Below are positions 17,602 through 21,373 of a stretch of DNA of 39,182 nucleotides, in pieces. The position numbers were made by a program, and so were the translations under genes. The first letter of the stretch is position 1. Each line of letters starts with the position of its first letter. The notes below the pieces were generated by a model. It did not search any database. It worked only from the letters and a program-made list of their open reading frames with translations, and was not told the DNA's origin. The stretch is from Candidatus Flavonifractor intestinigallinarum. Its GTDB lineage: Bacteria; Bacillota; Clostridia; Oscillospirales; Oscillospiraceae. The stretch spans positions 1 through 39,182 of the forward strand of contig DWXO01000001.1 of assembly GCA_019119165.1 (NCBI GenBank). Reading direction: 5' to 3'.

Positions 17602-18051
17602 TTAATAGTTGACAGAACCGGAAACAGTGACCTTATAAGACGCGTTGTTTTGGAAGGCCAGCGTATAGGTGCCGGCCTCCGTCATTTCAATTGTTTTGCT
17701 GATCCGTCCGCCGGTGGCGGTAAAATAGTGGAAGGAGCCGTCTGAGGCAATCAGACCTACGTCCAGTTTTGCGGTAGAGGGGGAGTAGGTGGCGTCAATG
17801 GTGATGGTTTCACCCGCGGACATGGAAAAGCTGCTTTAGGCCTTTGACAGTGTATTTGCAGAAATTTTAATATAATAGGTCTCGGTGGCTCTGGATTCAA
17901 TAAGGCTGTCTATTTGATGCTCCAGAAGAGAATTTGTACTCACATCGTGCGTCACATCACATTGAACTGCAAAAGCCGGGCTTTGCATACTGAGACATCC
18001 CAGCAGGGCAACACAGGCCGCTACTGCTTTTAACCTATTTTTACAATTCAT
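17602..18051 (-). pseudogene. Secreted small protein gene interrupted by an in-frame TAA
   Basis: One reading frame of 149 codons broken by TAA at 17836-17838. The first part (from the ATG at 18049-18051, overlapping the upstream HTH gene stop as ATGA) encodes a clear signal peptide, positively charged CKNRLK, hydrophobic core and cleavage after AFA. The part after the stop (SAGETITIDATYSP to VSGSVNY) reads as a beta-sandwich like other small secreted Clostridia proteins, with a C-terminal AGTYTLAFQNN pattern. No ribosome site serves the ATG at 17823 beyond the stop, so the second half is probably not made. The stretch 17520-18120 is visibly more AT-rich than its surroundings. Family not recognised; nonsense decay, a sequencing error or readthrough are all possible. 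Confidence 0.6.
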
Positions 18052-18503
18052 TCCCATGGCACTAAATCAAACTCCTCTCCAGCATTTACATTTTCTTTTA
18101 CAACTAAATTGTCCCAAGAAATTTTGATCTTCTCTTTTGTGCCGACCATGCCAAAGCCGAGCCAAATCCCCAGGGCCAGGATGCCTGCGGCGGCAAAGGC
18201 CAGAACCGCCGCCAGCAGAGCTGTCCGCCGTCTGTGGGGCTCCCGCACCGCCGGGCACTCCGGCTGCGCCTCCGGTTCCGCCGCCTCCTCCCGGGGCTGG
18301 GCTGCTTCAGGGCCGTATACCAGCTCGTTCAGAGACACCCCGTACAGCTGGCTCATCTGGATCAGGCTGTCCAGGGAGGGCGTACCCACGCCGGTCTCCC
18401 ACCGGGAGATGGCCTGCCTGGACACGTTCAGCCGCTCCGCCGCATCAGCCTGGGAAAGCCCTCTGGCCTTCCGCGCCTGGGCCAGTCTCTCTGTCAATTC
18501 CAT
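18048..18503 (-). CDS. XRE-type HTH protein with one transmembrane helix, short outer tail
   Basis: 151 residues. N-terminal HTH_3 domain, about 1-60 (LSQADAAERLNVSRQAISRW), a proline/glutamate-rich linker, basic stop RRR, one membrane helix at about 94-120, then only 31 residues outside. The first 65 residues match those of the 273-residue protein at 18856 at about 55 of 65 positions, so the two are paralogues, but the large outer domain is missing here. This looks like a membrane-tethered DNA-binding protein. Its stop overlaps the start of the broken secreted gene, suggesting that the pair was made together. Confidence 0.8.
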   Translation of the reverse strand: MELTERLAQARKARGLSQADAAERLNVSRQAISRWETGVGTPSLDSLIQMSQLYGVSLNELVYGPEAAQPREEAAEPEAQPECPAVREPHRRRTALLAAVLAFAAAGILALGIWLGFGMVGTKEKIKISWDNLVVKENVNAGEEFDLVPWE

Positions 18504-18592
18504 CTTTCTTCACCTCAACAGCGTAGCTGATACCTGCTTTTTTGTAAACCTCATCTCCGTTGCGCCTGGGCAATGAAGCGTTGCGTCCCTCT

Positions 18593-18621
18593 ATTCTACC
18601 GCCATTTGCCCGATCCCGCAA
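18593..18621 (-). promoter_or_regulatory. Promoter of the 151-residue HTH gene
   Basis: TTGCGG (18616-18621), 17-bp spacer, TAGAAT (18593-18598) on the minus strand. Both hexamers and the spacing are identical to the promoter at 19725-19753. Confidence 0.7.
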
Positions 18622-18657
18622 CCTGTGGTCCCATCCGGCTTCCTCCGCACATGACAA

Positions 18658-18695
18658 AGCCCGGGGGCGGAATGAATTCATTCCGCCCCCGGGCT
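18658..18695 (-). terminator. Perfect 38-bp palindrome, probable terminator
   Basis: 19-bp arms AGCCCGGGGGCGGAATGAA meet with no spacer, centred on GAATTC. On the minus strand CTTTGTCATG follows, a weak T-run. It shares the GGCGGAAT core with the hairpins at 16912 and 20743 and would end the transcript of the 273-residue HTH gene. Confidence 0.65.
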
Positions 18696-18817
18696 CTGGA
18701 AGGGAATAAGAATAGGGAAACGCATTTTGAAGCTGCGGACACGTCTGTGTCATCTCTATCCTTAAAAATCAGCTTATCCAATGGAGCGTTTCTTGTAAAC
18801 CACATATCTGTTGCAGA

Positions 18818-18840
18818 GGGGGCAACGCTCCGTTGCCCCC
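18818..18840. repeat. GGGGGCAACG hairpin repeat, copy 1
   Basis: 10-bp perfect stem GGGGGCAACG/CGTTGCCCCC with CTC loop, 15 bases past the stop of the 273-residue HTH gene. An identical hairpin lies at 20662-20684, and in both the minus strand continues to an ATG-GTTTACAAG-like segment about 15-20 bases on. Confidence 0.75.
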
Positions 18841-18855
18841 GGGGCTGCCAGACCT

Positions 18856-19677
18856 TTATCCATTGAACTGCACCGCGGAAATCTGGATTTCCACCGTCCC
18901 ACCCGCGCTGCCGGTGGAGATATCCACGCCAAAGCGGGGCTGGTTATCCCCGCCGCTCTCCAGCGCCTCAAAGGTGCGGGTGACGGTGGCTCCGGCGGGA
19001 ATCCGAGTTTCCAGCATATCCCGCCCATTTTCATACAAGTAGCCAGCCTGGAACAGCAGAGGTTGGGCGCTGTCGTTGGTCACGGTGACGCTGAGGTAGC
19101 GGCCATTGGCGCCTATAAAAGAGATATCTCGTTCAAAATCGCTGCCCGAGCGGTATTCGGTGTCCTCCAGCACATGAATGCCCATTTCCTGCTCCACGGG
19201 CTCCACCTCAGCGAAGGGGCCTACCTGCTCCCCTGCCCGGTCCAGCGGCAGCTTGTCCCAATCCTGTTCCACCCCGCCGACCACGATGACCGAGCTACTC
19301 TGTTTGCTCTTGTTGCTGTTCATCAGGCTGCTGCCCCAAATCCCCAGGACCAGGCCCCCCACAGCCACAAGGGCCAGGACCACCAGCAGAGTGGGCCGCC
19401 TCCTTTTAGGCGCCTGTACCGGTTCCGACTCTTCCGTCAGTACCTCCGATTCCGGGGCCTCTTCCGGGGCTTCCGCCCCTCCCGGGCCGTATACCAGCTC
19501 ATCCAGCGACACCTGGTACAGCTTGCTCATCTGGATCAGGTTATCCAGGGTGGGCATCCCCGTTCCGGTTTCCCACCGGGAGATGGCCTGCCGGGATACG
19601 TTCATCCGCTCCGCCGCCTCGGCTTGGGAAAGCCCCCGGGCCTTCCGGGCCTGGGCCAGTCTTTCTGTCAAATCCAT
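18856..19677 (-). CDS. HTH-transmembrane protein with large outer domain
   Basis: 273 residues, start ATG with GAGGTGAAAAAAC upstream. HTH_3 domain at about 1-60 (LSQAEAAERMNVSRQAISRW), acidic linker with KRRR, membrane helix at about 95-115, serine-rich stem, then an outer domain at about 138-273. That outer domain is about 73 percent identical by eye to residues 121-257 of the secreted protein at 19783. Both contain RSGSDF, GANGRY, PLLFQAG, GRDML, a stretch IPAGATVTRTFEALESG and the same C-terminus IQISAVQFNG. I know no named family for the domain; beta-sandwich is inferred from its strand pattern. The layout suggests a one-protein signal relay from outside to DNA. Confidence 0.8.
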   Translation of the reverse strand: MDLTERLAQARKARGLSQAEAAERMNVSRQAISRWETGTGMPTLDNLIQMSKLYQVSLDELVYGPGGAEAPEEAPESEVLTEESEPVQAPKRRRPTLLVVLALVAVGGLVLGIWGSSLMNSNKSKQSSSVIVVGGVEQDWDKLPLDRAGEQVGPFAEVEPVEQEMGIHVLEDTEYRSGSDFERDISFIGANGRYLSVTVTNDSAQPLLFQAGYLYENGRDMLETRIPAGATVTRTFEALESGGDNQPRFGVDISTGSAGGTVEIQISAVQFNG

Positions 19678-19724
19678 GTTTTTTCACCTCAACAGCGCAG
19701 CGTATGCAGGATTTAGTACCTCTC

Positions 19725-19753
19725 ATTCTACTGTTCTTTTCCCCATTCCGCAA
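19725..19753 (-). promoter_or_regulatory. Promoter of the 273-residue HTH gene
   Basis: TTGCGG (19748-19753), 17-bp spacer, TAGAAT (19725-19730) on the minus strand, 47 bp before the ATG. Matches the promoter at 18593-18621 in both hexamers and spacing. Confidence 0.7.
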
Positions 19754-19782
19754 CCCACCTGAATATGGTAAAATTCGGGGCG

Positions 19783-20556
19783 TTACCCGTTGAACTGTAC
19801 CGCAGAAATCTGAATATCCACCGTTCCGCCCTCGCCGCTGCCGGTGGAGATATCCACGCCAAAGCGGGGCTGAATGGCCGCGCCACTCTCCAGTGCCTCA
19901 AAGGTGCGGGTAACGGTGGCCCCGGCGGGAATCTGGGTGGCGAGCATATCCCGCCCAGTGGCATACAGGTGCCCGGCCTGGAACAGCAGGGGGTGGGTGC
20001 CGTTGTTGGTTACGGTGATGCTGACATAGCGTCCATTGGCACCCACAAAGGGGATGTCCCGACTAAAATCGCTGCCCGAGCGGAACTGTGTCTCCTCCAG
20101 CACCATGATGCCGCCTTTCCGGGCGTCGGGCTGGACCTCAGCAAAGGAACCTACGGTCTTTCCAGCCTGATGCAGCGGAAGGGAATCCCATGCAGACGCC
20201 CCGGTACCCGATTCCACCGTAATGCCGCCCGGGTCGCTCCGACCCAGCACGACGGTAGTTTCGCCTCCGTCCCAGGTGATGGGTACGTCCAGCAGGTTGG
20301 CGATGGTCCGCAGGGGCAGATAGGTAGTGCCGCCGCCCGCCTGGTCGGTGTAGACGATGCTGGACGGAATTTCCTGGCCGCCCTCGGTTTTCAGTGTGTC
20401 CCCGGAAGCAAAGATGGTGCGCCCGTTGAGGTCCAGATTTACCGGATTGAAGGAGACCAGACCGGAGGCGGCCAGGGCGGTGGTAAGGCAGCCAGCCGTC
20501 AGGATCGTGGCCAGGACGCCGCTCAAAAACGGAATAACAGAACGGTTCTTTTTCAT
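19783..20556 (-). CDS. Secreted stalk-domain protein sharing its C-terminal domain with the HTH protein
   Basis: 257 residues, ATG with GGAGGG 6 bases ahead. Signal peptide at 1-30 (MKKNR, hydrophobic core, TALAA); C23 is preceded by TAG, a poor lipobox. Residues about 33-105 are a copper amine oxidase N-terminal-like stalk domain (NGRTI, TTYLPLRTIANLLDVPITWDG), a wall-associated module common in Firmicutes and not an oxidase. Residues 121-257 match the outer domain of the HTH protein encoded next downstream. The two genes are 105 bp apart and the downstream one has its own promoter. The natural reading is that this secreted form and the membrane sensor bind the same ligand or each other. Confidence 0.8.
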   Translation of the reverse strand: MKKNRSVIPFLSGVLATILTAGCLTTALAASGLVSFNPVNLDLNGRTIFASGDTLKTEGGQEIPSSIVYTDQAGGGTTYLPLRTIANLLDVPITWDGGETTVVLGRSDPGGITVESGTGASAWDSLPLHQAGKTVGSFAEVQPDARKGGIMVLEETQFRSGSDFSRDIPFVGANGRYVSITVTNNGTHPLLFQAGHLYATGRDMLATQIPAGATVTRTFEALESGAAIQPRFGVDISTGSGEGGTVDIQISAVQFNG

Positions 20557-20567
20557 GCAGTTCCCTC

Positions 20568-20645
20568 CTATGTTTTGTAATCAGCCCTTTCGGATTCTTT
20601 CACCGCCTCAACAGCGTAGCCCAGGACCTGTTGCTTGTAAACCAT
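20568..20645 (-). other. Possible 25-codon leader ORF before the stalk-domain gene
   Basis: ATG at 20643-20645 opens MVYKQQVLGYAVEAVKE and stops with TAG immediately before the GAGGG site of the stalk gene. It has no clear ribosome site. Similar sense sequence (VYKKAGISYAVEVKK) lies in the leader of the 151-residue HTH gene without a start codon, so this may be homologous leader DNA rather than a gene. Confidence 0.2.
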
Positions 20646-20661
20646 TTTCCCGTTGCTGTAG

Positions 20662-20684
20662 GGGGGCAACGCTCCGTTGCCCCC
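20662..20684. repeat. GGGGGCAACG hairpin repeat, copy 2
   Basis: Same 10-bp arms and CTC loop as 18818-18840, in the leader region of the stalk-domain gene. Confidence 0.75.
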
Positions 20685-20792: not shown

Positions 20793-21254
20793 TTATAACC
20801 GGGCCCCGCAATGGGGGCAGATGCCCTCCGCGCCCACGTCCCGCTCCCGCAGCCGTCCGCCGCAGCGAGAGCAGCGGCAGAACCGCCAGGCGATGAGTGC
20901 CATCAGCAGGATTACCACGCCCAGCAGGAGAAACACGGACCAGAGGGGCAGCAGATCTTTCAGGAAGAGGACCAACAGTCCCGCCGCGGCCAGAATCCGA
21001 AGGCAGGTCCAGCCCACCCGGCAGAGGGGGGCTTTTTGTCCCGGGGAGGGCGGGGCCTCCACCGTCGGAGCGGCACGGAGGGCGCTCCACAGCAGATAGC
21101 CGTCCACAGCAATCAGGCAGGCCAGCAGGATGGCGTTGGGGAGCAGGCCAGCCGCCCCGCCTACCCACAGGGTTTTCCCGATCTGGTAAACGCTTCGCAG
21201 GGTGAGCAGCAGGCTGACGGCACACAGCAGCCAGAGGTAACTCCGCCGGGTCAT
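20793..21254 (-). CDS. Four-helix membrane protein with C-terminal zinc ribbon, unknown function
   Basis: 153 residues from the ATG at 21252-21254, with GGGGG 7 bases ahead; upstream in-frame ATGs (to 21350) lack support. Four hydrophobic helices (about 6-22, 35-55, 80-95, 100-122) are followed by CSRCGGRL...GICPHCGARL, two CxxC pairs that should bind one zinc ion, facing the cytoplasm if the helix count is right. I do not recognise the family. First gene on the minus strand facing the divergent dnaD gene; the terminator follows. Confidence 0.65.
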   Translation of the reverse strand: MTRRSYLWLLCAVSLLLTLRSVYQIGKTLWVGGAAGLLPNAILLACLIAVDGYLLWSALRAAPTVEAPPSPGQKAPLCRVGWTCLRILAAAGLLVLFLKDLLPLWSVFLLLGVVILLMALIAWRFCRCSRCGGRLRERDVGAEGICPHCGARL

Positions 21255-21373
21255 GGCAAGGCCCCCTTTCCCAGGCTTGCAGGTGGATCTCTTCCCCTTC
21301 ATTGTATCAGCTTTCCTTTGAAATGCAATCGATTCCGAAAGAAAACACATCCCCGGAAATGTTTGCTGCGGGA

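Follow-up and report, generated by a model that had tools for sequence, protein, structure and literature searches.

The window analysed here is a stretch of 39,182 nucleotides of Candidatus Flavonifractor intestinigallinarum (family Oscillospiraceae; contig DWXO01000001.1), whose genome is numbered G000 in our G-numbered set. Its list of open reading frames (ORFs) contains a minus-strand row of three genes that encode a secreted protein with a stalk domain, a long XRE-type helix-turn-helix (HTH) protein with one transmembrane (TM) segment and a predicted outer domain, here also called the receptor, and a short XRE-TM paralogue. The stalk and receptor genes, which are the main subject of this study, are separated by 105 bases. 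The best model for the HTH of the long XRE was HTH_3 (E = 6.4e-20, 71.4 bits) and the hydropathy past the HTH was 2.60; HTH_3 was clear in both XRE proteins, and the remaining best Pfam matches were other Cro/C1-type models. When compared by BLASTP, residues 123–257 of the stalk protein and 140–273 of the receptor showed 99 identities in 135 positions with one gap (E = 2e-70) and the N-termini did not align, in agreement with the original prediction, made from the sequence by eye, of about 99 matches in 136 positions and of unrelated N-termini. This shared domain is a 300-nt direct repeat of 80% identity in the DNA, and no Pfam or NCBIfam match was found inside it up to an E value of 1. The two XRE proteins agreed at 82 of 144 aligned positions, over residues 1–143 of the long form, and their HTH parts form a 282-nt repeat with 82% identity at the DNA level. 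The shared domain is absent from the short form, which bears out the prediction of a second HTH-membrane paralogue that keeps the DNA-binding part and lacks the domain. The gene for the secreted partner of the short XRE is broken by an in-frame TAA in the window and is open in four other genomes of the genus (G015, G004, G018, and G005).

Table 1. Positions of the genes, domains and DNA elements of the locus in the window.
Feature	Position	Strand	Remarks
Secreted stalk protein	19783..20556	-	257 aa; predicted signal peptide ~1-31 (by eye), PF07833-like stalk domain, shared C-terminal domain
Shared domain, stalk copy	19786..20190	-	99/135 identical to XRE copy; orthologues in G011, G015
XRE-TM-domain protein (long XRE, receptor)	18856..19677	-	273 aa; HTH_3 at 7-61, one TM segment at ~97-115 after KRRR, predicted outer domain 140-273
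Shared domain, receptor copy	18859..19263	-	identity to stalk copy; dN/dS 0.09-0.10 (first part), 0.17-0.25 (second part)
Short XRE-TM paralogue	18048..18503	-	151 aa; outer tail of ~40 aa, terminal GEEFDLVPWE
Secreted partner gene of short XRE, first piece	17836..18057	-	sec-family profile E 2.1e-17; 10-base overlap with 18048-18503
Secreted partner gene of short XRE, second piece, past in-frame TAA	17602..17823	-	sec-family profile E 4.5e-37
Box A (GCAA-N7-TTGC), stalk leader	20666..20680	.	within palindrome 20662-20684
GGTTTAC half-site, stalk leader	20637..20643	-	37 nt from Box A start
Box A, short XRE leader	18570..18584	.	pattern scan
GGTTTAC half-site, short XRE leader	18544..18550	-	34 nt from Box A start
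Third Box A palindrome, between long and short XRE genes	18822..18836	.	pattern scan

The short XRE and its secreted neighbour were found to represent an arrangement that recurs in the host family, Oscillospiraceae, of which 300 genomes were surveyed. The XRE-TM profile had matches in 215 of 250 family genomes (1e-14), and the short single-TM XRE, mostly with an outer tail of 35–55 residues, was often followed directly by a gene for a small secreted protein. By phmmer, 12 of 14 such next ORFs belonged to one family, named here the sec family, and two (L195 and L212) fell outside it. The sec partner has an N-terminal hydrophobic stretch, interpreted as a signal peptide, and the family matched no Pfam family in more than one of ten members and no NCBIfam in more than two of ten, with a best E value of 0.002. 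A sec-family profile of ten sequences found 22 places in 19 of the 300 family genomes (14 of 106 genera), and two matched genomes among 291 of the class, both from the same family as the host. At 18 of the 22 places, the interrupted gene of the window included, the sec gene lay directly 3′ of a single-TM XRE gene on the same strand, with a start-to-end difference of −16 to +25, and as called the two ORFs overlapped by 10–17 bases at eight of the 22. The other places were a single 256-aa XRE-TM-sec fusion protein in G105 (L296), a sec sequence joined to an XRE fragment (L292), one at a contig edge (L300), and one with another protein (L297). A sec-family ORF came next to 18 of 25 short-tail single-TM XRE genes, a count that omits the interrupted copy of the window and in which part of the 25 had entered through the sec search itself, and next to none of 20 long-ectodomain or 42 multi-TM XRE genes; for any secreted-like ORF, the corresponding counts were 20 of 25, two of 20, and two of 42. 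Among the 17 short XREs recruited by the XRE profile, 11 had an uninterrupted sec ORF next to them (one reaching the contig end) and that of the window was interrupted.

The leaders of these genes, scanned from −160 to +60 around the gene start, contain two elements. Box A is the palindrome GCAA-N7-TTGC, and Box B in full is (G/A)TAAAC-N6-10-GTTTA(C/T). The pattern GCAACGNNNCRTTGC, built from the sites of the window, matched the window only at the three Box A positions listed in Table 1, with five strand matches against 0.03 expected. Box A was present in 18 of 25 short XRE leaders (in one, L199, the site falls inside the gene), 25 of 42 multi-TM leaders, and one of 16 long-ectodomain leaders, and the mononucleotide shuffle expectation was 0.08 per 25 leaders. 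When spacers of 3–12 were compared, 7 stood out with 18 leaders, the others giving 0–2, and the background was nine sites in 622 kb of other loci, two of them near an XRE start. Full Box B was found in nine of 25 short XRE leaders and in none of the 42 multi-TM or 16 long-ectodomain leaders, and is thus specific to the short XRE cassettes; its half-site was found in 15, one, and none, respectively. GGTTTAC occurred 28–40 nt from the start of Box A in nine of the 25 short XRE leaders, always at 34 nt, and in one of the 42 multi-TM leaders (the loci L209 and L298 are near copies in one genome). Box A and GGTTTAC were also present upstream of the G105 fusion gene, and in the stalk leaders of G000, G011, and G015 both were found at a distance of 36–37 nt. 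The palindrome of the stalk leader, with up to one mismatch, had six occurrences in 20 genomes of the genus, all at this locus. Because an element very like the two-box element of the cassette precedes the stalk gene in all three genomes, XRE control of this gene is probable. DNA sites had been predicted near 18600 and 19740; Box A of the short XRE leader fits the former, nothing was found before the long XRE near 19740, and the other element lies instead at 20637–20680 upstream of the stalk gene. The conserved stalk leader was also considered as a sigma-70 promoter, and the promoter scan lists no site over it. Separately, the Box A sites before multi-TM XRE genes (loci between L198 and L276) suggest that the operator serves this XRE class more generally, and a 22-nt inverted repeat without a loop (95% complementary) lies at 18655–18698 between the long and short XRE genes, with resembling palindromes in the G004 and G015 leaders.

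The shared domain was detected in four of the 20 genus genomes, the host included, with both copies in G000, G011, and G015 and one copy in G016, where the gene is cut at the contig start; among 60 relatives, the same four genus members alone were matched. A profile run over the 300 family genomes added G275, G083, and G159 (weak and partial), all as stalk proteins, and the full-length stalk profile added G178 as a carrier of the domain. In these four genomes no XRE protein with the shared domain was found, which argues that the domain probably moved from the stalk protein to the receptor. The domain is thus the C-terminal half of a stalk-protein subfamily, seen on XRE proteins in this genus only; the side-by-side recurrence that the original prediction had asked about was found for the XRE-bearing pair within the genus, and the domain itself was traced more widely. 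The two genes were adjacent in G000, G011, and G015, all three genomes in which both are visible, so the predicted setting of a tethered DNA-binding protein with its domain outside, beside a secreted bearer of the same domain, holds in each. Both copies are under purifying selection, with dN/dS of 0.09–0.12 for the stalk domain and the values given in Table 1 for the two parts of the receptor copy. A tree of the copies separated XRE from stalk copies by one branch (support 78 of 100, not starred), with a very long outgroup branch. AlphaFold2 modelled the domain from six sequences as eight strands (mean pLDDT 62.1), for which Foldseek gave a carbohydrate-binding module of family 11 as the best PDB match (E = 5.8e-4, TM score 0.37 by query); many unrelated beta folds came next, and the highest query-normalised TM score among the 50 matches listed was 0.50. 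A carbohydrate ligand is thus only a hint. The model of the full stalk protein was unusable (mean pLDDT 43.9).

The N-terminal domain of the stalk protein matched PF07833 with an E value of 5.5e-4 and 20.3 bits, under the gathering cut-off of 24.2. Its assignment as a distant PF07833 relative nevertheless appears credible, since residues 37–79 of PDB 8imd are matched (E = 1.1e-4) by a profile built from six stalk proteins. The PF07833 domain of PaSOD (PDB 8imd) is reported to be the one by which that protein dimerises (PMC10432803). The stalk protein would resemble Cu_amine_oxidN1 proteins such as PaSOD in being secreted and in having the same N-terminal domain, a dimer-maker in PaSOD, and would differ from them in a C-terminal domain that matches no family in the libraries searched.

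Taken together, we favour, at a probability of roughly 0.55, the reading that the locus consists of two tandem XRE cassettes, in which the stalk/receptor pair is a derived, co-component-like switch whose receptor bears the domain of its secreted partner. The architecture, homology, neighbourhood, shared leader element, and purifying selection that form its basis are all read from the sequences. Each cassette would comprise a single-pass membrane-tethered XRE regulator and a secreted partner, with the short XRE and its interrupted partner as the ordinary form. In the derived form the stalk protein would take the role of partner, and the regulator would have gained a copy of the C-terminal domain of the stalk protein as its outer sensor. 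The most likely target of the XRE part is the GCAA-N7-TTGC palindrome that precedes both the short XRE gene and the stalk gene; both copies of the domain would bind the same thing, and this binding would alter the activity at the DNA. The receptor, whose gene would sit in the stalk operon, probably gauges either the target that the stalk protein meets outside or that protein itself, and tunes how much stalk protein is made; the control may be repression or activation.

Several observations weigh against this interpretation. The shared domain and the sec family have no detectable sequence homology (hhalign probability 2.4%), so that the regulator, the gene neighbourhood, and the boxes have to carry the description as a derived form of the same cassette. 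In the window itself, the secreted partner of the short XRE is encoded by an interrupted gene. The loose Box A gave the same three sites in the window against 0.56 expected, and two of 100 shuffles reach three. None of the three long XRE leaders contains either box, and control of the receptor therefore leans on transcription that is assumed to read through from the stalk gene, which lies 105 bases upstream. The stalk leaders of G294, G083, G197, and G275 are likewise without boxes (0 of 4). Box A is not specific to the cassette, because it also precedes the multi-TM XRE genes counted above, one of them together with GGTTTAC, and the leaders on which the boxes were counted are largely those on which they had been noticed.

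The stalk protein might instead be a soluble antagonist or ligand that acts on the receptor directly, by pairing of the two domains or by competition for a ligand, in line with the soluble or wall-bound form of the sensor domain that the original prediction had supposed. The presence of the same domain on adjacent genes and a PF07833 domain that is able to dimerise in PaSOD (PMC10432803) are compatible with such contact, and stretches of the G015 stalk copy that resemble the receptor suggest that the copies have recombined to some extent. Among the 12 stalk-receptor pairs tested, long match runs were seen with this stalk copy alone, and in the later alignment columns their p values were 0.0014, 0.0002, and 0.0028 against the receptors of G015, G000, and G016; the match with the G015 receptor, one pair of the 12, covers 18 variable sites. 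Since no other stalk copy has long runs, recombination may have touched this one copy, and concerted evolution was not demonstrated. Gene conversion that keeps the copies alike was rejected, uniquely shared sites within genomes being only 6 of 14 (p = 0.31), and this absence of a general within-genome excess speaks against the antagonist or ligand reading. The shared boxes fit a regulated product equally well. We consider the antagonist unlikely.

That the domain of a neighbour was duplicated by chance, and is now put to another use or to none, is also unlikely and ranks next. It would agree with the fact that the domain was seen on an XRE protein in one genus only and with the finding that, among 35 XRE-TM ORFs whose ectodomain spans at least 60 aa (some of them seen in two overlapping loci), only two, both from this genus, share the ectodomain with a neighbour. 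Purifying selection on both copies and the boxes before the stalk gene argue for a functional link, as does a second case in G197, where a membrane regulator that differs in its cytoplasmic part has an outer domain in common with the stalk protein next to it. The scan for such cases covered 102 stalk ORFs at 95 loci, drawn for the most part from the matches listed for the full-length stalk profile, and in this set a stalk C-terminus shared with a neighbouring regulator-like membrane protein was seen at the three Flavonifractor loci and in G197. In the latter (L150:4152–7225), a Sigma70_r2 ORF is followed in a row by a TM protein in which two stretches match DUF4367 and by a stalk protein that also carries DUF4367. 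The cytoplasmic part of the TM protein is without a Pfam match, and from the layout, with the Sigma70_r2 ORF preceding it, the protein is probably an anti-sigma factor. No homology was found between the shared domain of the window and the DUF4367 stalk proteins. The sigma-like ORF of G197 appears to change frame in its assembly.

Other neighbourhoods of stalk genes gave no further pair of this type. In G083 and G294, XRE-TM genes adjoin stalk genes without domain sharing. Three shared-region matches were rejected as regulator pairs, namely two hydrolases (L127), two proteins with N-terminal signal-like stretches (L140), and an ORF on the opposite strand (L147), and the HTH ORFs near stalk genes in L098, L133, L136, L138, L143, L155, and L166 had no TM segment or lay on the other strand. 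In G275 (L058:5170–6839), a related stalk gene is likewise beside another regulator: it lies divergently next to a PadR gene and to a TM protein whose matches to HAAS and DUF6120 fall below threshold.

The locus lies between dnaD/dnaC and zapA/U32 peptidase, and the content of this spot varies across the genus. The short XRE with its secreted gene is present in G000, G004, G005, G015, and G018, and the long XRE in G000, G011, G015, and G016. The short XRE had been taken for a truncated competitor of the long one; because three genomes (G004, G018, and G005) carry it without the long form, it is not simply that, and it has a secreted partner of its own and resembles other short XRE-TM proteins. 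By tblastn (1e-3), the spot is without any XRE, stalk, or sec match in ten genomes (G001, G002, G003, G007, G008, G012, G013, G014, G017, and G019), in a survey that leaves out G006 and G010, with zapA near a contig end, and G009, with zapA unmatched. Such a variable spot might hold mobile-element or phage cargo, which we regard as very improbable, as the shared domain and the sec protein were unmatched in 50,697 phage records, the sec protein was unmatched in 72,556 plasmids, and the PHROGs matches, among those listed, were confined to the N-terminal HTH-bearing part. Least credible of all is a RodZ-like membrane cell-shape protein whose HTH would not bind DNA: RodZ has an HTH-TM-beta layout like that of the receptor and zapA is a neighbour here, but RodZ is recognised by the models HTH_25 and DUF4115, of which the former scored 18.1 bits, under its cut-off of 24.6 and far below HTH_3, and the latter was not among the matches up to an E value of 1, and palindromes precede the related genes.

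A known defence system was also considered, and the PADLOC matches were confined to the HTH-bearing N-terminal part. When G015 (L017:6763–7664) and G004 (L042:2356–3257) were compared over the two neighbouring genes, dS was 0.249 for the short XRE and 0.009 for sec, and values so unequal point to an event that involved only the sec gene, either recombination or transfer. A membrane protein of 185 aa, with a weak zinc-ribbon match at its C-terminus (E = 0.046), is encoded at 20793–21350 between the stalk gene and dnaD, and is also present in G004 and G015. The window had no Rfam match at gathering scores.

The favoured reading of a derived, co-component-like switch was compared with known systems. 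The long XRE has a DNA-binding domain and a TM segment in one chain, as do the transmembrane transcription regulators (PMC10269533), which combine a cytoplasmic HTH, a TM segment, and an outer part; its outer part is, in contrast, a copy of the secreted domain of a neighbour, a pairing that is not described in the portion of that paper used here. The co-component systems VtrA/VtrC, ToxR/ToxS, and TcpP/TcpH likewise have a transcription factor tethered to the membrane and, encoded by a neighbouring gene that often overlaps, an extracytoplasmic partner, which is membrane-anchored with a lipocalin-like fold (PMC9214523), and the words Gram-positive and Firmicutes are absent from the main text of that article. 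An adjacent partner gene was found at 18 of the 22 sec-family places; the HTH is of the HTH_3/XRE type, with HTH_3 and Cro/C1-type models best instead of one like VtrA or ToxR, the partner is apparently secreted and not membrane-anchored, and the host is Gram-positive. In SigI/RsgI of Clostridium thermocellum (PMC4711584, PMC12203970), a membrane regulator also has an outer domain resembling secreted proteins of its regulon, as RsgI6 has an outer GH10 and cellulosomal GH10 xylanase genes are under sigma-I6 (PMC4711584). That system works by an anti-sigma mechanism, whereas here the regulator itself bears the DNA-binding domain. An XRE domain takes the place of an anti-sigma cytoplasmic domain with an adjacent sigma gene, and the G197 row is another system. 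The sensor of BlaR1 is homologous to class D beta-lactamases, so that a receptor sensor is related to a secreted protein meeting the same ligand, and BlaR1 differs in protease signalling through a separate repressor. The original statement that no described system has this arrangement was therefore too strong in principle, as RsgI6/GH10 (PMC4711584) and VtrA/VtrC and ToxR/ToxS (PMC9214523) were already known; the cassette as such was not found described in the open-access literature, which leaves out most subscription papers.

On a wider scale, we tentatively suggest, with somewhat less than even confidence, that one family of gut Clostridia has an autoregulated cassette in which a single-pass XRE with a short outer tail works with a small secreted protein, and that the latter completes or reads the receptor on the outer side of the cell. 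Such a cassette would be the equivalent of co-component signalling in Gram-positive bacteria; its operator would consist of two boxes in a fixed geometry, and its receptors would have taken the domain of the partner into their own chain at least twice, in the G105 fusion and in the Flavonifractor pair, where the secreted copy was kept. The design of a membrane regulator and an adjacent stalk protein with the same outer domain was met twice; the regulator was of the XRE type in one case and anti-sigma-like in the other. If this is true, two unnamed protein families would gain a context for study, and the natural fusion in G105 would tell which parts belong together. Gut Clostridia would then have a defined, testable short route to sense the cell surface or the surroundings, made of one regulator, one secreted partner, and one palindromic operator.

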